A program made the translations under genes and the position numbers. DNA of 64,000 bases from an uncultured SAR116 cluster alpha proteobacterium (lineage in GTDB: Bacteria > Pseudomonadota > Alphaproteobacteria > Puniceispirillales > Marisalimonadaceae). Below are positions 3,397-61,797 of the stretch, in pieces. The stretch is from positions 186,001 to 250,000 of the forward strand of contig CACMYY010000001.1 in NCBI GenBank assembly GCA_902618025.1, read 5' to 3'. The notes beneath the pieces are model-generated. The model had not been told where the DNA came from, did no database searches, and saw only the letters and a program-made list of their open reading frames with translations. Position 1 is the stretch's first letter. Every line of letters begins with the position of its first letter.

Positions 3397-4806
3397 ATGA
3401 CAGATGTTGATTATGATCTTATAGTGATTGGTGGAGGCCCTGGTGGATATGTAGCTGCAATTAGAGCATCTCAACTAGGTATGTCAGTTGCATTAGTTGA
3501 GGATAAACATTTAGGTGGGATTTGTTTGAATTGGGGATGTATTCCTACTAAAGCTCTATTAAGAGCTAGTGAAATTAGACATATGTTAGATAATGTTGAT
3601 GAATTTGGTTTTACAGTATCTGGCATAAAAATGGATATAAATAATATAACTAAAAGGTCTAGAAAAGTAGCATCGCAATTGTCATCTGGCATTAGTCATC
3701 TTTTGAAAAAAAATAAAATAAAAGTTTTTGAGGGTTTCGGCAGTTTGGTTAAAGTTTCATCAAATGTTAAAAAAATAAGAATAAAAACAAAGGAAAATAA
3801 TATAGAAAAAACTGCTAAGAATGTTATTCTTGCTACTGGGGCTAGATCTAGAAATTTACCTTTTGTTTCATCTGACGGAGTAAATATTTGGGATTATAAA
3901 ACTGCAATGACTCCTCCAAAATTACCTTCATCACTTATTATAGTTGGCTCTGGTGCCATTGGAATGGAATTTGCCTCTTTTTATAATGATTTAGGAGTTG
4001 ATACAACCATTGTAGAAGCTTTGCCTTCAATTTTACCAAACGAAGACACTGATATATCTAAAATAGTAAAATTAAATTTTGAAAAAAGAGGTATAAAGAT
4101 TAAAACTAGTTCTGCATTAAAATCAGTTACAACCAAAGAAAATTCAGTTTCAGCTGAAATTATTACTAATGAAAAGGTAGAAACAATAAACTCGGAAAAA
4201 CTTATTTTAGCAATTGGAATAATTGCAAATACTGAAAAGCTAGGCTTAGAAGATTTTAATATAAAAATTGACAAAGGTCATATTGTAACTAATGAGTTTT
4301 TAGAAACAGATGAGAAGGGAGTGTACGCCATTGGTGATATCACTGATGGCCCTTGGTTGGCACACAAAGCCAGTCATGAAGGTGTTTTATGTGTAGAAAA
4401 AATTGCAGGTCATCAAAATTTAAAACCAATAGATAAAACATCAATCCCAGGATGTACATACTGTAGACCTCAAGTTGCCTCAATAGGAATGACTGAAACA
4501 CAAGCTAGATCTAAAAATCTTAATCTTAAAATTGGTAAATTCCCATTCATTGGTAATGGTAAAGCTATTGCTTTAGGAGACTCGGAAGGTTTAATTAAGA
4601 CTATCTTTAATAAGGATACTGGCGAGTTAATTGGAGCTCATATGGTTGGCCCGGAGGTTACAGAATTAATACAAGGATTCTCTATTGCAAAAAAATTAGA
4701 AACTACAGAACATGAGCTTATGCACACAATTTTTCCTCATCCAACTCTTTCTGAAGGTATTCATGAGTCTGTTTTGGATGCCTACAATCAAGCAATTCAT
4801 TACTAA
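3397..4806 (+). CDS. lpd: Dihydrolipoyl dehydrogenase (E3)
   Basis: This FAD-dependent disulfide oxidoreductase reoxidises dihydrolipoamide with NAD+ and completes the PDH complex. It has the N-terminal FAD-binding GGGPGGYVA (from residue 12), the redox disulfide GGICLNWGCIPTKA (Cys43/Cys48), the central NAD-binding GSGAIGMEFA, the second FAD motif YAIGDI, and the C-terminal catalytic HPTLSEGIHE (His448, Glu453). At 469 residues it is the usual size. It begins 10 bases after pdhC with GGAAAC upstream of ATG. Position in the operon argues for a PDH-dedicated E3. Confidence 0.97.
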   Translation: MTDVDYDLIVIGGGPGGYVAAIRASQLGMSVALVEDKHLGGICLNWGCIPTKALLRASEIRHMLDNVDEFGFTVSGIKMDINNITKRSRKVASQLSSGISHLLKKNKIKVFEGFGSLVKVSSNVKKIRIKTKENNIEKTAKNVILATGARSRNLPFVSSDGVNIWDYKTAMTPPKLPSSLIIVGSGAIGMEFASFYNDLGVDTTIVEALPSILPNEDTDISKIVKLNFEKRGIKIKTSSALKSVTTKENSVSAEIITNEKVETINSEKLILAIGIIANTEKLGLEDFNIKIDKGHIVTNEFLETDEKGVYAIGDITDGPWLAHKASHEGVLCVEKIAGHQNLKPIDKTSIPGCTYCRPQVASIGMTETQARSKNLNLKIGKFPFIGNGKAIALGDSEGLIKTIFNKDTGELIGAHMVGPEVTELIQGFSIAKKLETTEHELMHTIFPHPTLSEGIHESVLDAYNQAIHY

Positions 4807-52201: not shown

Positions 52202-52903
52202 TTAAATAATTTTATTTGTGAACAGTCCGTAACCGCCATCTCTTACGGTTCTTATAGGATCTAAATTTTCATCTGAAGCAGTCTTTAGTGCCTTTCTTAG
52301 TCTACTCATATGAACATCTACTGTTCTTTCTTCAACATAAACACCATGGCCCCAAACCAAATCCAACAACTTGCCTCTGGAAAATATATGCCCTGGTCTT
52401 TCCATTAATAATGTAAGCAATTTGAATTCTTTAGGTCCGAGTTTTACATTTTTGTTAAAATAATTAACGGTCATTTCATTCAGAGAAATCTTTAGATTTT
52501 CATGTTCTAAAATATTATTAATTAAAGCGGGCCTAGATCGTCTTAGAAGAGCATTAACTCTTGATATGAGTTCTTTTGGAGAAAAAGGTTTAGAAATATA
52601 ATCGTCAGCTCCAGTATCTAATCCTAATGATTTATCTGTGTCATCGCTTCTTGCACTAAGAATAATTATAGGTAGTTGCTTAGTTTCAGATCTTGATCTC
52701 AAAGTTCTACATAAATCAATTCCAGACATATTAGGCATCATCCAATCCAAAATAACTAAATCAGGAGAATGATCCTCAATCAGCTGTAATGCATTTTTAC
52801 CATCTCTGGCTTTGATTGTTCCAAAACCTGATGTCTCAAGATTATATGCCATTAATTCTAATTGGTTTGGTTCATCATCTGCGATTAATATATTAGTTTT
52901 CAT
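52202..52903 (-). CDS. phoB: Phosphate regulon response regulator PhoB
   Basis: PhoB activates phosphate-starvation genes when phosphorylated by PhoR. The 233-residue OmpR-type protein has a receiver domain (ADDE, phospho-acceptor Asp53, Lys105) and a winged-helix domain with LTLLMERPGHIFSRGKLLDLVWG and VDVHMSRLRKAL. It is the last gene of the minus-strand phoR-pstSCAB-phoU-phoB cluster and starts 10 bases after phoU. Confidence 0.96.
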   Translation of the reverse strand: MKTNILIADDEPNQLELMAYNLETSGFGTIKARDGKNALQLIEDHSPDLVILDWMMPNMSGIDLCRTLRSRSETKQLPIIILSARSDDTDKSLGLDTGADDYISKPFSPKELISRVNALLRRSRPALINNILEHENLKISLNEMTVNYFNKNVKLGPKEFKLLTLLMERPGHIFSRGKLLDLVWGHGVYVEERTVDVHMSRLRKALKTASDENLDPIRTVRDGGYGLFTNKII

Positions 52904-52913
52904 TTTTAACCTC

Positions 52914-53621
52914 TTATTCAGGAATTATAAGGCTACTTTCGTCAGCCTTTGGTCTTAGATCTGATAAAACTTTTCCATTAACTAAAAAATAAACTTGCTC
53001 TGCAATATCTGTTACATAATCTGCAACACGTTCAATATTTTTGGCTATAAAAAGAAGATGTGCACCAGTTGGAGCTAGTTTTTTATTTCTTTGCATTGAT
53101 GCAACAATTTCCAAATAATATTGAGTATGCATTTTATCAATTTTAACGTCTGAATTTCTAACTTTAACAGCTAATTTGTCATCTTCATTAACATATGATT
53201 CAATTACATCTTCCATCATCGTAAAAGTTTTCTGTCCCATTTTACCAATATTAACCCCAGGTAAATCTGAGTAATTTAATTCTATTAATAATTTGGTTCT
53301 ATTAGAAATATTTCTTGAATAATCTCCAATTCTTTCAAAAATTGTAGCAATTTTTAAAGCAACAATAATTCTTCTTAAGTCAGCTGCTTGGGGTGCTCTT
53401 AAAGCAATTATTTCAAAACCTAATTTTTGAACTCTATCATCCAAGTCATCTAAAATTGTGTCTCCGTCAATCACCTTTTCAATTTCTTCAAGGTTTTGTG
53501 TTCCAAAATTATTTATACAATTATCAAACTGATCAAGTGCAGTATTTCCTAATTTTAACAAATTATCATTTAGTTTGTTAAGGTCATTGTCAAAAGATGA
53601 GTGAATATGTGTATTTTCCAT
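52914..53621 (-). CDS. phoU: Phosphate signalling protein PhoU
   Basis: PhoU is a cytoplasmic helical protein that links the Pst transporter to PhoR and represses the regulon when phosphate is abundant. The 235-residue product contains two PhoU domains, each with acidic metal-binding stretches (GDTILDDLDDRVQ; KIATIFERIGDYSRNISN; FIAKNIERVADYVTDIAEQ). It lies eight bases after pstB and 10 before phoB. Confidence 0.95.
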   Translation of the reverse strand: MENTHIHSSFDNDLNKLNDNLLKLGNTALDQFDNCINNFGTQNLEEIEKVIDGDTILDDLDDRVQKLGFEIIALRAPQAADLRRIIVALKIATIFERIGDYSRNISNRTKLLIELNYSDLPGVNIGKMGQKTFTMMEDVIESYVNEDDKLAVKVRNSDVKIDKMHTQYYLEIVASMQRNKKLAPTGAHLLFIAKNIERVADYVTDIAEQVYFLVNGKVLSDLRPKADESSLIIPE

Positions 53622-53629
53622 TAAAACTC

Positions 53630-54448
53630 CTATCCTATTTTCCCAGATATATATGCTTCAGTTTGATGATGCTGAGGCCTTGTAAATATTTCTTTTGTTT
53701 TTCCAACTTCAATAAGTTTTCCAAGATGAAAATAAGCTGTTCTTTTAGAAACTCTTGCTGCTTGTTGCATAGAATGAGTAACTATAACTATAGAATAATC
53801 ATTCCCTAATTCATGTATCAAATCTTCAATTTTAGCTGTTGCGATGGGATCAAGCGCAGAACAAGGCTCATCCATTAAAATCACCTCTGGACTTACAGCA
53901 ATTGCTCTTGCAATGCATAGTCTTTGTTGTTGCCCACCTGAAAGACCTGTGCCAGGGCTTTGAAGTCTGTCACTAACTTCTTGCCATAGACCTGCTCTTT
54001 TTAGAGACTCTTCAACAATAACATCCAAATGTTCCTTGTTTTCTGACAATCCATGTATTCTTGGACCATAAGCGACATTATCGTATATAGATTTTGGAAA
54101 TGGATTAGGTTTTTGAAATACCATCCCAATACGAGCTCTCAAAGGTACAACGTCAATTTTTTTATCATAAATATTTTCATCATCAATAGTAATTTCTCCT
54201 TGCACCACACAAGAGTCTATAGTGTCATTCATTCTATTAAAACATCTAAGGAATGTTGACTTTCCACAACCAGAAGGACCAATAAATGAAATAACTTCTT
54301 TACTTCCAATGTCGATGGTCACATTGTCTATTGCTTTATTATTTCCATAAAAAACATTAACATTTCGAGCTTTTAATCTGGCATTTTTTGAAAAAACATC
54401 GCCTACAGTCAGTTCAAGAGATTTTAAATCGTTTCTATTATTCATCAA
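53630..54448 (-). CDS. pstB: Phosphate ABC transporter ATP-binding protein PstB
   Basis: PstB hydrolyses ATP to drive phosphate import. The 272-residue ATPase has Walker [10 protein letters not shown], the Q-loop [10 protein letters not shown], signature [14 protein letters not shown], Walker [13 protein letters not shown] and the switch histidine VTHSM. The start at 54448 follows GGAG. An N-terminal extension of about 25 residues precedes the ATPase domain. It lies nine bases after pstA. Confidence 0.97.
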
Positions 54449-54457
54449 TGATCTCCA

Positions 54458-55753
54458 TTACCAACGTCTTTCAAGTTTTTTTCTTAAGTATACAGCTAAT
54501 GCATTCATGCTAATCAAAAAACCTAATAAAACAATAATAGCTGCACTTGTTTTTTGAATAAACATCCTTTCAGCAAAATCAGCCCACATAAATATTTGAA
54601 CTGGCAAAACAGTGCCTGGGTCTACTATACTATTGGGTACATCAACTATAAATGCAACCATTCCTATCATTAATAGAGGAGCGGTTTCACCTAAAGCCTG
54701 CGCCATTCCAATTATAGTCCCAGTTAACATGCCAGGCATAGCAAGAGGAATTACATGATGAAAAATCACTTGAAGTTTAGAAGCTCCTATTCCGTAAGCC
54801 GCATCTCTTACTGACGGAGGAACTGCTCTAATTGCCGCCCTGGATGAGATTATTATTGTTGGTAATGTCATAAGAGCTAAAACCATTCCTCCAACTAGTG
54901 GAATAGATCTTGGCATCCCAAAAATACTTATAAATATTGCTAGTCCCATAATACCAAAAACAACTGAAGGAACAGCGGCTAAATTATTAATATTAACTTC
55001 TATAAATTCAGTAATTTTATTTTTTTTAGCTACCTCTTCCAAGTAAATAGCCGTTGCGACACCCAAAGGAAACGCAATCAACAAACATACAGATAATGTT
55101 AACATGGAGCCAATAAATGCTCCTTTTATGCCAGCCATTTCAGGGTTTCCTGATGCACTACCACTTAAAATATAATCACTAAACTCATAAGAAATTCTAC
55201 CTTCTTCATTCAATTTATCTATATATTCTATAATTTTGTTACTTATTCTTCTTTCCGATTCTGGAGTTTCTCTTTTAATGTAGCCTCTTAAAAAACTATC
55301 TATATCATCATCTAACGCAAACTTAACTTTAGTTGTTGTTCCAAACAAAGAAGGATCATTTTTAACCATCTTAGCAATTCTGACATCTTTACCAGATGAA
55401 ACTATTTTTTTTGCTTGTTTTTTTGCTTTTCTTCCTTGGGGTTGAATAATAGAAAAAAGAGATTCATTTACTATCTTACTCGCCTCCCCATCAAATAAAG
55501 AGTTATCTGAGAGATCCCCTTTTGGATCAATTCTTTCTCTATCAAAATTTATGTCAAGAGTAACGTAATATTGAAAAAATCCAGAATATCCTTTTGAAAA
55601 AATTGAATAAAATAAAATAAGCAAAAAGCAGACTGCCAAGCTTATTGCAACCCTACCATATAATTTTAGTCTATTATCTTTAGCTCGTCTTTTTGCAATA
55701 GACTTTTTTACTTTATTTGAAGCTTCTAATGGTGTGATAATTTTATTATTCAT
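54458..55753 (-). CDS. pstA: Phosphate ABC transporter permease PstA (with long N-terminal extension)
   Basis: The 431-residue permease is longer than the E. coli protein (296) because of a roughly 200-residue N-terminal part of DUF3333 type, common in alphaproteobacterial PstA. A first membrane span at about 32-50 is followed by this extracytoplasmic region. The core has five or more spans and the EAA loop RDAAYGIGASKLQVIFHHVIPLA. It overlaps pstC by eight bases, supporting translational coupling. Confidence 0.95.
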   Translation of the reverse strand: MNNKIITPLEASNKVKKSIAKRRAKDNRLKLYGRVAISLAVCFLLILFYSIFSKGYSGFFQYYVTLDINFDRERIDPKGDLSDNSLFDGEASKIVNESLFSIIQPQGRKAKKQAKKIVSSGKDVRIAKMVKNDPSLFGTTTKVKFALDDDIDSFLRGYIKRETPESERRISNKIIEYIDKLNEEGRISYEFSDYILSGSASGNPEMAGIKGAFIGSMLTLSVCLLIAFPLGVATAIYLEEVAKKNKITEFIEVNINNLAAVPSVVFGIMGLAIFISIFGMPRSIPLVGGMVLALMTLPTIIISSRAAIRAVPPSVRDAAYGIGASKLQVIFHHVIPLAMPGMLTGTIIGMAQALGETAPLLMIGMVAFIVDVPNSIVDPGTVLPVQIFMWADFAERMFIQKTSAAIIVLLGFLISMNALAVYLRKKLERRW

Positions 55754-57134
55754 ATTGTTCTCTGTATTTTTTTACAACATGCAGAGCATAAAAATTCATT
55801 GCAAGTGTAATTACGATAAGAGTTAAAGCTAATGCAAACGCAGACAATGTTTTTGCAGACTCAAACTCTTGGTCACCAACTAATATAGTAACAATTTGAG
55901 ATGTTACAGTTGTGACAGCTTCTAAAGGATTAGCAGTAAGATTTGCAGCCAAACCTGCAGCCATTACAACTATCATTGTTTCCCCAACAGCTCTAGAAAC
56001 AGCTAGGATAATACTAGCTACAATACCAGGTAAAGCAGCAGGAAGGACAATTTTTATTACAGTTTCGTTTTTAGTTGAACCTAAACCATAACCTGCATCT
56101 CGTAAGGACTGAGGAACAGCATTTATTACATCATCAGATAAAGAGGAAATAAATGGTATAATCATTATCCCCATCACCAATCCTGCTGCTAAAGCTGACT
56201 CAGAAGCTACATCTAATCCAAATATAGAACCTGAGGACCTTAAAAAAGGAGCAACAGTTAGAGCGGCAAAAAAACCATAAACAACTGTGGGTATGCCTGC
56301 CAAAATCTCCAAAAGTGGTTTAAAAAAAACTCTCTCCTTTGATGTGGCGTATTCAGATAAGTAAATTGCACTAAATAACCCAACAGGCACTGAAACACAT
56401 AATGCGATTATTGATATAAGAAAAGTACCAGCAAACAAAGGAATAGCACCATACTGAGACAATCCTTCTTGACCAGAGCCAGCTCTTTCAGCACCTTCAA
56501 ACTGTGGGTTCCATACTGTTCCAAACAAAAATTCATCATACGGTATAAGTGCAAAAAATCTAATAGATTCAAAAACAACAGAAAAAATAATTGCAATAGT
56601 AGTTAATATTGCAATTACTGAACTTACTGCCAGGATTGACATTACGATCTTTTCAACTGCATTTCGTGAACGAAAATTACCACTAATTTTTTTGTAACCC
56701 AAAAAACCTGAAATTAAAGCAGTTGATATACAAATAATTACAGTAATAATTTGAGATTTATGAATCCATGAAATCCAAATTTCTGCTGCATTTGTAACCC
56801 ATTTAGGTGGTGTGCCAAATATCAAACCTTCTACAGAATTATTAATCTGAGCTAAAACAATTGTAAAATTATAATCTTTAGACGCAACTACTTCCTTTGG
56901 TATATATTTTTTGATTAGTTCTGCAAAAATTAAATCATCGCAAATAGTAAATATAAAAAAAATTCCTAAAGCAGGTAATAATGAGACTAAAAGAGAGTAA
57001 ACCCCATAATAATGTGTCAACGAATGAAGATTTTTTTGATTTAATTTAACTAAATTTTTTGCTCGGTTGTTACCAAGAAAAAAGAAAATTAAAGAGATCA
57101 GTAATACACTGCTAAGCAGATAAAAATTAAACAC
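55746..57134 (-). CDS. pstC: Phosphate ABC transporter permease PstC
   Basis: PstC forms the membrane channel with PstA. The 462-residue form is extended at the N terminus by two membrane segments and an additional domain. The core has the EAA-type motif RDAGYGLGSTKNETVIKIVLPAALPG and five or six spans. It is separated from pstS by a 59-base gap containing a hairpin (57155-57182), so its expression can be lower than that of pstS. Confidence 0.95.
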   Translation of the reverse strand: MFNFYLLSSVLLISLIFFFLGNNRAKNLVKLNQKNLHSLTHYYGVYSLLVSLLPALGIFFIFTICDDLIFAELIKKYIPKEVVASKDYNFTIVLAQINNSVEGLIFGTPPKWVTNAAEIWISWIHKSQIITVIICISTALISGFLGYKKISGNFRSRNAVEKIVMSILAVSSVIAILTTIAIIFSVVFESIRFFALIPYDEFLFGTVWNPQFEGAERAGSGQEGLSQYGAIPLFAGTFLISIIALCVSVPVGLFSAIYLSEYATSKERVFFKPLLEILAGIPTVVYGFFAALTVAPFLRSSGSIFGLDVASESALAAGLVMGIMIIPFISSLSDDVINAVPQSLRDAGYGLGSTKNETVIKIVLPAALPGIVASIILAVSRAVGETMIVVMAAGLAANLTANPLEAVTTVTSQIVTILVGDQEFESAKTLSAFALALTLIVITLAMNFYALHVVKKYREQYE

Positions 57135-57193: not shown

Positions 57194-58231
57194 TTACTTT
57201 TTTAAATCTGCAGCAGTCAAAACTGGTAAGTTTGTCATGGCAGCTTTATATTTAGCTCTTTCTGCCTTAGGCATTGGTATCATACCTGCGTCAGATAATG
57301 CTCCTTCATCGCCCCAATGTTTTGTCCATTCAGCCATATACTCTTTCATACCTGGTACAACACCAATATGTTGATGCTTTACGTAGTAATATAATGCTCT
57401 TGAAACAGAGTAATTATTCCCAGCAATATTTTCAAATGTAGGAGCTGTTTTACTAATAACTGCACCTTGTAATGTATCAGAGTTTTGATCTAAATATGAA
57501 AAACCAAAAATACCATAAGCTGAAGTATCTTCATTTAATTTTTGAACAATAAGATTATCTTGCTCTCCAGCCTCTATAAACACTCCATCTGTTCTCATAG
57601 CACGACATTTTTTACCTTTTTTATCTCCTCTTGCCACAGATGCCGCTTTGGCTTCTTTATCCTTGGCACAATAACCTTTTTGGTTTACCATTTCAGCATA
57701 TGAAGCTCTTGTACCAGAAGTTGTTGGCGGACCATATACTCTTATAGCAATATCTGGAAGATCAGGATTAATATCACTCCATTTTTTATAAGGATTTTTA
57801 ACCCATTTACCATTAACAGGTATCTCAGCAGTTAGAGCTTTACCTAAATCAGCCTTAGAGATGTTTAATGGAATACCTTTCTTTGAGTTAGCAACAACAA
57901 TTCCGTCGTAACCAACCTTAATTTCAGTTAGTTTAACACCATTTTTTTCACAATACGCTAATTCTTTAGATTTCATTCTTGAAGATGCGTTTCCAATATC
58001 AATAAATTTTGTACCAACACCATCACAAACACCTTTTTTGCCAACGGAAGATCCACCTGATTCTACCACTGGAGTTTTGAAGTTAGGATTTTTACCAAGT
58101 TGTTCTGCGATGATTCTAGCAAATGGTAAAACTGTAGAAGATCCAGCAAGACTTAATGTATCTCTAGCCTGAGCAACGCTAGTCACTACTAAACCAGAAA
58201 TAATACCAGCCATAAAAATTGTCTTTTTCAT
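57194..58231 (-). CDS. pstS: Periplasmic phosphate-binding protein PstS
   Basis: PstS binds phosphate for the Pst transporter. The 345-residue protein has a signal peptide (MKKTIFMAGIISGLVVTSVAQA) and PstS-family segments SLAGSSTVLPFARIIAEQLG, VESGGSSVGKKGVCDGVG and the central VRVYGPPTTSGTRASYAEM-like segment (IRVYGPPTTSGTRASY). Two PhoB-box-like repeats lie upstream at 58305-58326 and 58365-58386. It is the first gene of the minus-strand pst operon after phoR. Confidence 0.96.
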   Translation of the reverse strand: MKKTIFMAGIISGLVVTSVAQARDTLSLAGSSTVLPFARIIAEQLGKNPNFKTPVVESGGSSVGKKGVCDGVGTKFIDIGNASSRMKSKELAYCEKNGVKLTEIKVGYDGIVVANSKKGIPLNISKADLGKALTAEIPVNGKWVKNPYKKWSDINPDLPDIAIRVYGPPTTSGTRASYAEMVNQKGYCAKDKEAKAASVARGDKKGKKCRAMRTDGVFIEAGEQDNLIVQKLNEDTSAYGIFGFSYLDQNSDTLQGAVISKTAPTFENIAGNNYSVSRALYYYVKHQHIGVVPGMKEYMAEWTKHWGDEGALSDAGMIPMPKAERAKYKAAMTNLPVLTAADLKK

Positions 58232-58304: not shown

Positions 58305-58326
58305 CTTATATTACAGTTTTATTACA
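58305..58326 (-). promoter_or_regulatory. PhoB-box-like direct repeat A upstream of pstS
   Basis: On the minus strand TGTAATAAAAC is followed immediately by TGTAATATAAG, giving two half-sites 11 bases apart, the spacing of PhoB binding repeats (E. coli consensus half-site CTGTCATA with AT-rich spacer). Here the core is TGTAA instead of TGTCA. It is about 75 bases before the pstS start codon, a plausible position for PhoB-dependent activation. Confidence 0.7.
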
Positions 58327-58364
58327 AAATAAGTTATATTCAGCTTAAAATAATAAAAAAATAA

Positions 58365-58386
58365 GATATGTTACAGAATTGTTACA
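58365..58386 (-). promoter_or_regulatory. PhoB-box-like direct repeat B upstream of pstS
   Basis: On the minus strand TGTAACAATTC is followed by TGTAACATATC, again two TGTAA half-sites exactly 11 bases apart. It starts about 12 bases after the phoR stop codon, further upstream than repeat A. Together they suggest cooperative PhoB binding between phoR and pstS. Confidence 0.65.
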
Positions 58387-58396
58387 ATTGTCTAAA

Positions 58397-59440
58397 TTAA
58401 TCTGTGTTAGCAAGTGGAAAAGTCATAGCAAAATGAGTTAATTCTTTAGGTGTACTTTTTATTTCTAAAGTTGCTCTATGCTTAATTAAAATATGTTTTA
58501 CAATAGCAAGACCAAGTCCAGTGCCGCCAAGTTCTCTTGATCTGGCTTTATCAATTCTAAAAAATCTTTCAGTTAATCTATCTAAATATTTTTCTGGAAT
58601 TCCGTCACCTTGGTTTATTACACTTACAATAACCTCATCTTTCCTAAATTGTTCAATGCGAACAAGAATATCAGTTTTTTCATAACCATACTTAATGGCA
58701 TTTTCTAATAAATTCACAAAAACCTGATTAATCTCATCTATATTACCAATTATGAAACATGGATCGTTAGTGTTTTGCCTTAAGTCTTCTAATGTTATAT
58801 TATTATTTTTACTTAAACCTCTCTCTTTAATTGATGAAATTACATATTGAATAGGATTTATTAGAGATATGTTTGTATTTGGTGTGATATGCTCTTCTGT
58901 TTCCACTTTAGATAATGACAAAATATCATCAATTAATCTATTCATTCTTTTAGCTTCTTCATCCATAATATTTAAAAATTTTCTTATGGTGCTTTCATCT
59001 TCTACGTTTCCATTAAGTAGGGTTTCAATAAAACCGACCAAGCTCGTAAGCGGCGACTTTAACTCATGACTAACATTTGCCACAAAGTCTCTTCTAACTT
59101 TTTCAAGATTTCTTTGAAGTGTCATATCTAAAAGTAAAACACCAAATAGATTTTTTTTAATTTTTTTAACTTTTATCAGCAATGATCGCTTTAAAGCATC
59201 ATCTATCTGATAATTAAACTGATCATCAAAAACACCGTTTTCATAGCTAGTATTTAAATTTTTGAGCTCTTCAATATCAACTAAATGATAAATAAACTTA
59301 CCAATTAAGTTTTCACCTAAATATTGTTTTGCAAGATTATTAGAAAATAATATACAACCCAAATCATCACAAAAGAGAAGACCATCTTCAAGAAGTTGAC
59401 TTACATTACTTATATTATTTGGAATAGATTTTTTTTTCAT
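58397..59440 (-). CDS. phoR: Phosphate regulon sensor kinase PhoR, soluble form
   Basis: The 347-residue kinase has a PAS domain (about 10-110), HisKA H-box VSHELKSPLTSLVG with His125, N-box NLLENAIKYG and G-boxes INQGDGIPE and ELGGTGLGLAIV. It lacks the N-terminal transmembrane segments and charged linker of E. coli PhoR (431 residues); no hydrophobic stretch long enough to cross a membrane is visible anywhere. PAS and kinase sequences and the position upstream of pstS identify it as PhoR. Signalling from Pst through PhoU would then be to a cytoplasmic or peripheral kinase. Confidence 0.9.
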   Translation of the reverse strand: MKKKSIPNNISNVSQLLEDGLLFCDDLGCILFSNNLAKQYLGENLIGKFIYHLVDIEELKNLNTSYENGVFDDQFNYQIDDALKRSLLIKVKKIKKNLFGVLLLDMTLQRNLEKVRRDFVANVSHELKSPLTSLVGFIETLLNGNVEDESTIRKFLNIMDEEAKRMNRLIDDILSLSKVETEEHITPNTNISLINPIQYVISSIKERGLSKNNNITLEDLRQNTNDPCFIIGNIDEINQVFVNLLENAIKYGYEKTDILVRIEQFRKDEVIVSVINQGDGIPEKYLDRLTERFFRIDKARSRELGGTGLGLAIVKHILIKHRATLEIKSTPKELTHFAMTFPLANTD

Positions 59441-59470
59441 AATTAAATAATAAGCAAAAATTAATAAATT

Positions 59471-59492
59471 TGTAATATAAGTTTTATAATAA
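59471..59492 (+). promoter_or_regulatory. Candidate PhoB half-site between phoR and the GAPDH/arsJ pair
   Basis: The 11-base sequence TGTAATATAAG is identical to the second half-site of repeat A before pstS. It is followed by TTTTATAATAA, a poor second half-site, and lies 64 bases before the GAPDH start codon. It is suggestive of shared PhoB control but, in such AT-rich DNA, could arise by chance. Confidence 0.35.
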
Positions 59493-59555
59493 GTTATTTA
59501 TATTAATTTTTTATTAAATTTATTAATATTTAAAATTTTTCTAAAAGGTCGAAAA

Positions 59556-60554
59556 ATGGAAACTCTTGCTGTAAACGGTATCGGGAGAATTGGAAAGCTA
59601 GTAGTAAAGTTATTAGTTCAAAATCAATACAACTTAACTCACTTAAATGAAATAAACGGTAACACTAACTCATTAATACATAGCATTAAATTTGATAGTA
59701 TTCATGGAAAATGGCAAGCAAATATTGAAGATGGTAAAGATGAAATAAAGATTAATGGCAAGTCTATAAAAGCAACTTTTGTTGAAAATATTAATGATCT
59801 CAGCTTAGATGATGTAGACATTATGATTGACTGCACAGGTGTATACAAAAGTTCTTCAAAACTTCAAAAATATTTTGACAAAGGTATAAAAAAGGTAATT
59901 GTTTCAGCACCAATAAATGAGGATAATATTGTAAATATTGCTTATGGAGTTAATCATAATATTTATAAGCCAAAAAAACATAATATAATAACAGGGGCAA
60001 GTTGCACGACTAACTGCATAGCCCCAATTATTAAAGTTTTACATGAAAATATTGGTATAAACCATGGTTCTATAACAACTATTCATAATTTAACAAACAG
60101 TCAGACTTTAGTTGATATTCCTCATAATGACCTTAGAAGAGGCAGGTCTGCAATAAATAACTTAATACCTACCACCACAGGTTCAGCTAAAGCTATTTCA
60201 TTAATTTATCCAGAATTAAAAGGAAGATTAAATGGACACGCTGTCAGAGTCCCTATTTTAAATAGTTCTTTAACTGATTGTGTTTTTGAAATGAAATCAT
60301 CAACTAACAAGGATCAAATCAACAACCTGCTTAAATCAGCGAGTGAAACCGAATTAAAAAATATATTAGGATACGAAGAACGCCCATTAGTCTCAACTGA
60401 CTTTATAAATGACCCTAGAAGCTCAGTTATTGATAGCTTATCTACAATGGTTGTAAATGATACACAGGTTAAGATCTATGCTTGGTATGATAATGAATGG
60501 GGTTATGCCAATAGAATGGTTGATATAGTAAATATGGTGATCAAAGCTACTTAA
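59556..60554 (+). CDS. Glyceraldehyde-3-phosphate dehydrogenase (ArsJ-associated type)
   Basis: The 332-residue type I GAPDH has NAD-binding NGIGRIGKLV, the catalytic ASCTTNC (Cys150), His177 in TIHNLTNSQ and WYDNEWGYANRMVD. Because arsJ follows four bases later, this is most likely the dedicated GAPDH that forms unstable 1-arseno-3-phosphoglycerate from arsenate and glyceraldehyde 3-phosphate, for export by ArsJ. A glycolytic role is the alternative. The strong divergent layout with phoR suggests phosphate-linked control. Confidence 0.88.
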   Translation: METLAVNGIGRIGKLVVKLLVQNQYNLTHLNEINGNTNSLIHSIKFDSIHGKWQANIEDGKDEIKINGKSIKATFVENINDLSLDDVDIMIDCTGVYKSSSKLQKYFDKGIKKVIVSAPINEDNIVNIAYGVNHNIYKPKKHNIITGASCTTNCIAPIIKVLHENIGINHGSITTIHNLTNSQTLVDIPHNDLRRGRSAINNLIPTTTGSAKAISLIYPELKGRLNGHAVRVPILNSSLTDCVFEMKSSTNKDQINNLLKSASETELKNILGYEERPLVSTDFINDPRSSVIDSLSTMVVNDTQVKIYAWYDNEWGYANRMVDIVNMVIKAT

Positions 60555-60558
60555 AATA

Positions 60559-61797
60559 ATGATCAAACTTAATAACAATGAAATTTCTTTTGCTCTAATC
60601 ACTCTTGCTTATTGGTTTTTTATGTTAACTGATGGCGCATTGAGAATGTTAGTTTTACTTCATTTTCATGTTCTAGGTTATACACCCCTTCAATTAGCAT
60701 ATTTATTTTTATTATATGAATTTTTAGGCATGATTACCAACCTTGGAGCTGGATGGATAGCTAAAAAATTTGGTCTCAATACTACATTGTTTGCTGGGAT
60801 AATCCTTCAAATATTCTCTTTAATGATTTTAACTCAACTAGATCAAACATGGAGTACTACTTTATCAGTTCTTTTTGTAATGTTTACACAAGGCTTGTCT
60901 GGTATTGCTAAAGATTTAACAAAGATGAGTGCTAAAAGCTCAGTTAAGCTACTCTCCCCTAATAAAAACTCAAAATTATTTAAATGGGTTTCTCTTATGA
61001 CTGGATCCAAGAATGCTGTTAAAGGATTTGGCTTCCTAACAGGAGCTCTTCTTCTCTCTTTTACTAGCTTTGAAACCTCACTTAAAATAATGGCCTTAAT
61101 TCTTGCTTTAATGTTCATACTATTATTAATTAATTTAAAAACTAATATTTCTGAAGTTAATAAAAAGTCAAAGTTTTCAGAAGTTTTTTCTAAAAACAAA
61201 GATATTAATTACCTTAGCCTTGGAAGAGTTTTCCTTTTCGGATCTAGAGATACATGGTTTGTTGTAGGATTGCCTATATTTTTATACTCAGCCTTATCTG
61301 ATGGATCATTGGACGGGAATAAAAAAGCTTTTTTTATTATTGGGGCATTTATGGCGGCGTGGACTATATTTTACGGACTTGTTCAAGCCATTACCCCCAA
61401 AATACTGTCAAAAGATAGGTCCTTCAGCAAACAATCTAAGTTCTGGGCTGAATTTCTAACCGCAATTCCTTTGGTATTAATAAGCTTTAATTATTATTTT
61501 CAAGAATATAGTATTTATAATGTTACATTTTTAATTTTTATGTTTGGATTTGTTTTTGCCATTAATTCATCTATTCATTCTTTTTTAATTTTAAATTATA
61601 CGAATAACAAAAGAGTAACACTTGACGTTGGATTTTATTATATGTCCAATGCTTTTGGCAGATTAATTGGAACACTATTGTCTGGACTTGCCTTCCAATA
61701 TGGAGGTTTCACTCTTTGCCTCTTCATTACTTCAATTTTACTAATGTTAAATAGATTAGTCATTCAAAAACTTAATTTGAAATATATTAAAGTTTGA
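60559..61797 (+). CDS. arsJ: Organoarsenical efflux permease ArsJ
   Basis: The 412-residue major-facilitator protein has about 12 hydrophobic segments and the ArsJ pattern YWFFMLTDGALRMLVLLHF, GLSGIAKDLTKMSAKSS, TGSKNAVKGFGFLTG and SRDTWFVVGLPIFLY. ArsJ exports 1-arseno-3-phosphoglycerate made by the GAPDH immediately upstream, giving arsenate resistance. No arsR, arsC or arsenite efflux gene is adjacent. This family assignment is based on recalled sequence patterns and gene pairing. Confidence 0.88.
   Translation: MIKLNNNEISFALITLAYWFFMLTDGALRMLVLLHFHVLGYTPLQLAYLFLLYEFLGMITNLGAGWIAKKFGLNTTLFAGIILQIFSLMILTQLDQTWSTTLSVLFVMFTQGLSGIAKDLTKMSAKSSVKLLSPNKNSKLFKWVSLMTGSKNAVKGFGFLTGALLLSFTSFETSLKIMALILALMFILLLINLKTNISEVNKKSKFSEVFSKNKDINYLSLGRVFLFGSRDTWFVVGLPIFLYSALSDGSLDGNKKAFFIIGAFMAAWTIFYGLVQAITPKILSKDRSFSKQSKFWAEFLTAIPLVLISFNYYFQEYSIYNVTFLIFMFGFVFAINSSIHSFLILNYTNNKRVTLDVGFYYMSNAFGRLIGTLLSGLAFQYGGFTLCLFITSILLMLNRLVIQKLNLKYIKV

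Follow-up and report, generated by a model that had tools for sequence, protein, structure and literature searches.

A PhoB-box-like site precedes the gapdh-arsJ gene pair in SAR116 and other alphaproteobacteria

Introduction

Phosphate transporters let in both phosphate and arsenate, and arsenate in the surface ocean can near phosphate concentrations. In an uncultured alphaproteobacterium of the SAR116 cluster, an abundant marine group, a GAPDH-arsJ pair for putative arsenate detoxification lies divergent from phoR, the first gene of a phosphate-uptake cluster. Is the pair switched on by an arsenic sensor, or together with phosphate uptake, as a first-pass annotation had proposed? The question was investigated in a 64,000-nucleotide stretch of contig CACMYY010000001.1 (the window) and in related loci. 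The assembly containing the window comprised 1.55 Mb in 65 contigs and was about 75% complete.

The gapdh-arsJ Pair and Its Neighbours

The genes of the locus were as follows.

59556..60554, + strand: ArsJ-associated GAPDH (glyceraldehyde-3-phosphate dehydrogenase); NF033735, 525 bits, cut-off 450
60559..61797, + strand: arsJ, MFS arsenical efflux permease; NF033734, 504 bits, cut-off 400
58397..59440, - strand: phoR-like phosphate sensor kinase, divergent from gapdh; best family TIGR02966, 276 bits, below the cut-off of 334
57194..58231, - strand: pstS; TIGR02136 subfamily, 124 bits, below the cut-off of 207, and place in the cluster
55746..57134, - strand: pstC; ORF and gene order, kept in relatives
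54458..55753, - strand: pstA; ORF and gene order, kept in relatives
53630..54448, - strand: pstB; ORF and gene order, kept in relatives
52914..53621, - strand: phoU; ORF and gene order, kept in relatives
52202..52903, - strand: phoB response regulator; TIGR02154, 286 bits, cut-off 296

The annotated arrangement was upheld, since both proteins of the pair scored above their family cut-offs and the cluster phoR-pstS-pstC-pstA-pstB-phoU-phoB, headed by phoR, occupied the opposite strand. The ArsJ match was full length (positions 3-391 of the 392 of NF033734). Only 4 bp separated the end of gapdh from the start of arsJ, and the two genes probably form one operon. By analogy with the Pseudomonas and Vibrio ArsJ systems, the pair would confer arsenate efflux and resistance. 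The closest arsJ relatives were found in SAR116 single-cell genomes and MAGs, with 92-94% protein identity. A second, separate GAPDH was present in each of four complete relatives (G013, G014, G030, and G037), which marks the ArsJ-associated GAPDH as distinct from the housekeeping enzyme; a single GAPDH was seen in the window's own 75%-complete assembly, and a search of that assembly for ArsC (PF03960) gave no match. No ORF was found in the phoR-gapdh spacer.

A PhoB-Box-Like Site Upstream of gapdh

The following elements were located in the spacer and upstream of pstS.

59459..59476, + strand: PhoB-box-like site AATTAATAAATTTGTAAT, oriented to gapdh; 12.0 bits with the pstS/pit matrix, and spacer conservation
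59461..59476, + strand: conserved core 16-mer TTAATAAATYTGTAAT; spacer alignment of genus relatives
59471..59481, + strand: 11-mer TGTAATATAAG, made up of the box's second half and five bases that are not conserved; word search and spacer alignment
59487..59492, + strand: -10-like hexamer TAATAA, starting 10 bp past the box; recurrence of the TA offset
58370..58387, - strand: distal pstS Pho box TTGTAACAATTCTGTAAC; 11-bp repeat
58310..58327, - strand: proximal pstS Pho box TTGTAATAAAACTGTAAT, with TATTTC 10 bp later; 11-bp repeat

The first-pass annotation had cited the 11-mer as identical to half of a pstS Pho box. The second copy was confirmed at 58305-58315 (- strand), within the proximal pstS Pho box (TTGTAATAAAACTGTAAT followed by ATAAG). 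As a bare word, however, the 11-mer occurred at chance level: when one mismatch was allowed, the window held 3 matches against 4.2 expected. The 1.55-Mb assembly contained three exact copies, the third of them within coding sequence, and the final five bases (ATAAG) varied among relatives. The 11-mer taken alone was therefore rejected as evidence. The conserved element begins about 10 bases upstream of it and is a two-half site, with the halves TTAATAAAT and TGTAAT; redefined in this way, the half-site was conserved in relatives, although its annotated tail was not.

Alignment of the phoR-gapdh spacers of 11 genus representatives showed that TTAATAAATYTGTAAT was the best-kept 16-column block, with a mean identity of 94%; elsewhere, comparable conservation was confined to the ribosome-binding region and the start. 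Exact matches to TTAATAAATYTGTAAT in 61 genomes numbered 12, and its reversed control had one. Of the 12 matches, nine preceded gapdh-arsJ, and the other three lay in coding sequence, in a miaB-like gene (G016 and G006) and a dsbD-like gene (G013). Like CTGTCATAAAWCTGTCAY, the whole site AATTAATAAATTTGTAAT has two direct half-sites 11 bp apart, the first of them degenerate. It may be read as a PhoB box that has lost the TG of its first half (AATTAATAAAT-TTGTAAT versus CTGTCATAAAWCTGTCAY).

A log-odds matrix was built from 13 pstS/pit boxes only, chosen by eye, with the gapdh sequences left out. Among the 57 ORF upstream regions of the window, that of gapdh ranked second with 12.0 bits, after pstS (24.2 bits) and ahead of the next region (6.6 bits). 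Because its first half is without TG, the gapdh box of SAR116 is a weak one, with 12 bits here versus 24 for the pstS box. Two further window sites of at least 12 bits, at 4657 and 52443, were both within coding sequence. In dinucleotide shuffles, 13 of the 16 SAR116 representatives reached p <= 0.005; L048, L011, and L049 were weaker, and the box was almost lacking in L049 (5.4 bits). The E. coli consensus used on its own proved too crude for this AT-rich genome (window p of about 0.1 by a simple match count), which the matrix resolved. Regulation of gapdh-arsJ through an RNA leader was discarded as a candidate, there being no Rfam match and an ordinary fold (z -0.87).

In E. coli promoters, about 10 bp separate the Pho box from the -10 element. 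Of 21 gapdh promoters, 17 had a TA exactly at +10 after the 18-mer, as did all nine pst, pit, and phnM promoters, while the adjacent offsets 9 and 11 gave 0 and 1, respectively. The +10 TA had played no part in the matrix. Its position downstream of the box fixes the promoter direction towards gapdh.

Gene Order and Boxes in Relatives

The phoR-gapdh-arsJ adjacency, which the first-pass annotation had put forward for comparison among relatives, was conserved: nearly all SAR116-genus loci that reached far enough kept the divergent order. It was retained even where a PHO4/PiT transporter replaced pst between phoB and phoR. This replacement was seen in several SAR116 clades (L030:4324-5775, L041:4318-5769, and L048:2162-3610), and the replacing transporter had a strong Pho box of its own, which is unusual in a low-affinity transporter. 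Both pst and pit were present in G030, and likewise in L143.

Outside SAR116, the marine Rhodobacteraceae loci L053 and L055 had the same divergent phoR/gapdh-arsJ layout at about 50% protein identity. The gapdh boxes were stronger where phoR was not the divergent neighbour, with 17-24 bits in L050, L052, L056, and L058 and 17.3 bits in the Filomicrobium locus L066. Two loci of the same order as L066 scored 14.3 bits (L127) and 13.2 bits (L128), and within 17 kb of each the gapdh box was the sole match to reach 9 bits. In L123 and L124, gapdh-arsJ lay 1-2 kb away from phoR-pst-phoB, and the box of the gapdh operon was 1-2 bases off the pstS box of the same genome; in L123 the two boxes (CTGTAACAAAAGTTTAAT and CTGTAATAAAAGTTTAAT) were one base apart. 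L125 and L126 had the order gapdh-arsJ-pit and no box. The site was thus conserved in most SAR116 clades and in other alphaproteobacteria, with the exceptions L049, L125, and L126. Across the loci, the neighbours of gapdh-arsJ were pst, pit, ppk, and ppx.

In L050, L056, and L058, gapdh-arsJ-ppk-ppx stood in series with a near-consensus Pho box before gapdh, and in L058 pstSCAB lay downstream. Upstream of the series were a metallophosphoesterase gene and a glycosyltransferase-diacylglycerol kinase fusion gene, and their Pfam domains, the only basis for the assignment, suggest the plcP-agt lipid-renovation pair. In the L050 group the box ended 22 bp ahead of the gapdh ATG, so that transcripts would be almost leaderless.

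Some loci departed from the common organization. In L032 and L015 (G025), gapdh-arsJ was parted from phoR, a 108-aa phoR remnant lay near apt, and the gapdh box was degenerate, which forms a natural experiment on the phoR-gapdh link. In L028/L128 (G053:C10 322426-323593), a stop codon interrupted arsJ while gapdh and the Pho box were intact. Loss of arsJ in some genus members was considered and set aside: the G006 contig stops in pstS and the G002 and G009 stretches end in pstA, so absence in these three is unproven because the sequence ends before reaching phoR.

ArsR Genes and Alternative Explanations

A canonical ars operon has an ArsR-family repressor in or beside it. The reported lack of arsR beside gapdh-arsJ was borne out, as the ORF list held none in the window neighbourhood of the pair and the SAR116 loci tested had none up to 2.5 kb from gapdh; ArsR as a local regulator was dropped on this ground. 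Nearby ArsR genes and boxes were compared across the 63 loci whose upstream sequence was 300 bp or longer. An ArsR-family gene lay within 2.5 kb of gapdh in 17 loci, outside the SAR116 group, and the gapdh box scored at least 11 in 19; no locus had both (hypergeometric 7e-4, a value that ignores relatedness).

An arsenic-sensing ArsR encoded elsewhere could still control gapdh-arsJ in trans, as in ordinary ars operons, and the ArsR genes flanking gapdh in those 17 loci are in keeping with such control. The sole ArsR-family protein of the window's genome, encoded at G000:C33 5126-5422, is 98 residues long, has a C-terminal pair of cysteines, and scored below the ArsR/SmtB model's own cut-off. 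In L121 (G000:C33 3500-7500) its gene had on one side the gene of a multi-pass membrane protein and on the other that of a permease similar to Cu/Zn efflux proteins of the SO_0444 type, a match of 90 bits that fell short of the cut-off; the regulator was undetected in many arsJ-bearing genus members, the complete G030 among them. An ArsR site before gapdh, named in the first-pass annotation as contrary evidence, was looked for, and the spacer alignment held no further conserved operator-like block. Control in trans is thus improbable. Pho regulators are frequently autoregulated, and a slightly less improbable explanation is that the conserved box autoregulates the phoR-pst cluster while a constitutive gapdh-arsJ only shares the spacer. 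In the window the start codon of phoR is some 20-36 bp away from the box, and at about 20 bp from that start the box could also act on phoR. However, the polarity of the direct repeat and the -10 at +10 face gapdh, and the best reverse-strand score of the spacer was far lower in most relatives (close in L016 and L002). Moreover, gapdh boxes of equal or better quality occurred without a divergent phoR in L050-L058, L066, L123, L127, and L128.

Finally, the adjacency and the box could be a chance ancestral inheritance, with low constant expression and a vestigial box. The weak SAR116 boxes, their absence from L125 and L126, and the spurious matches that AT-rich sequence yields (those in coding sequence at 4657 and 52443) would fit this. 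A vestige would hardly explain a block conserved at 94% within an otherwise diverged spacer, nor different boxes of normal strength in unrelated contexts with an identical -10 spacing, and it was rated the least likely of the three by a narrow step. Control of gapdh-arsJ by the Pho regulon, as a two-gene arsenate-detoxification operon, is the reading we favour and consider quite likely.

A Second Arsenic Exporter Behind phnM

One further arsenic exporter was found in the window's genome.

L137:2923-6031 (G000:C7); also L142 and L129-L132: acr3 arsenite exporter in the C-P lyase operon, directly after phnM and preceded by a PhoB-like box

The acr3 gene (TIGR00832, 430 bits) directly followed phnM, which passed the TIGR02318 cut-off, and came shortly after phnK-phnL-phnN. 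The box ahead of phnM scored 16.1 bits, with TATGTA at +10, and the phnM-acr3 order was common to five further relatives. In G000, acr3 was followed by a class I methyltransferase gene with weak similarity to ArsM. Each of the two arsenic exporters identified in the genome thus stands behind a PhoB-like box, so that Pho control of arsenic efflux appears as a genome-level theme and not as a lone coincidence.

Discussion

From the conserved box, its orientation and -10 spacing, the missing local ArsR, and the phosphate genes that accompany the pair, all read from sequence, we infer that PhoB binds upstream of gapdh, that phosphate limitation induces the pair, and that arsenic does not. When phosphate is scarce, PhoR would phosphorylate PhoB, and PhoB~P would bind at pstS, at pit where present, and at the weaker box 59459-59476. 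At this box it would recruit RNA polymerase to the -10 located 10 bp downstream, leading to transcription of gapdh-arsJ. Arsenate entering by the phosphate transporters would be added by GAPDH to glyceraldehyde-3-phosphate, giving 1-arseno-3-phosphoglycerate, and ArsJ would export this compound or the arsenate freed from it. Transcription under PhoB~P would make export feed-forward: it would climb with the uptake that admits arsenate, and an arsenic sensor would be unneeded. Whenever phosphate uptake is raised, the cell would probably also be readied against arsenate poisoning. The original proposal, that arsenate export is switched with phosphate uptake and not by an arsenic sensor, thus gains support from a conserved box and a -10 spacing found in several lineages and contexts.

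There is an even chance that a broader reading holds, in which the PhoB regulon takes in ArsJ, encoded next to phoR-pst, as well as Acr3, encoded within the phn operon. PhoB would then have replaced ArsR in SAR116 and several other marine alphaproteobacteria, and detoxification would track phosphate hunger and not arsenic itself, with no arsenic sensor involved. If arsenate export in abundant marine bacteria is tied firmly to phosphate status, ocean arsenic cycling should track phosphate limitation and not arsenic levels, and transcripts of ArsJ, Acr3, and gap1/mfs in metatranscriptomes would serve as phosphate-stress markers.

Among known systems, the GAPDH-ArsJ pair of Pseudomonas aeruginosa DK2 sits in an ars operon with arsR, whereas the window pair has a PhoB-like box and no arsR. 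Arsenate resistance in DK2 (Chen et al. 2016, cited in PMC12607644) involves the same two families, encoded by adjacent genes and detoxifying via 1-arseno-3-phosphoglycerate. The var operon of Vibrio cholerae also encodes GAPDH and ArsJ, the latter proposed to expel free arsenate, but it is arsenate-inducible, encodes an ArsR of its own and includes the phosphatase gene VarH (PMC9601151); the window pair is accompanied by neither. Whether ArsJ exports 1-arseno-3-phosphoglycerate or free arsenate is disputed (PMC9601151).

Two cyanobacterial clusters are also comparable. In Nodularia, nsp33490-33550 encode an ArsJ-type GAPDH and an MFS permease beside phosphate-uptake genes, as here (PMC9846622, PMC3610870), and the GAPDH gene was up on P limitation (log2 +1.6 and +2.4), with arsR alongside (PMC9846622). 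The P-acquisition island of Prochlorococcus, arsR-chrA-mfs-gap1-phoA-phoBR-pst, likewise places an ArsJ-type GAPDH and an MFS permease next to phosphate-uptake genes (PMC10504305). Both clusters carry arsR, unlike the window, and the available portions of these sources describe no PhoB box before the pair. In Halomonas HAL1, the Pho box upstream of aioBA is bound by PhoB (PMC4563254, as summarised in PMC7533571), and PhoB also controls aio genes in Agrobacterium (PMC4563254, PMC7533571). In these cases, as is proposed for the window, a PhoB box serves an arsenic gene when phosphate is low; they concern arsenite oxidation by other genes, whereas the window concerns arsenate export.

Since the Nodularia, Prochlorococcus, and Halomonas cases are published, regulatory coupling of arsenic and phosphate is not new. 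A search of the open-access literature for arsJ with PhoB or the Pho regulon found no alphaproteobacterial report, and within that literature the replacement of ArsR by PhoB on gapdh-arsJ in marine alphaproteobacteria, together with acr3 in the phn operon, seems unreported. The gapdh-arsJ pair would represent a clean case of regulator replacement, from ArsR to PhoB.
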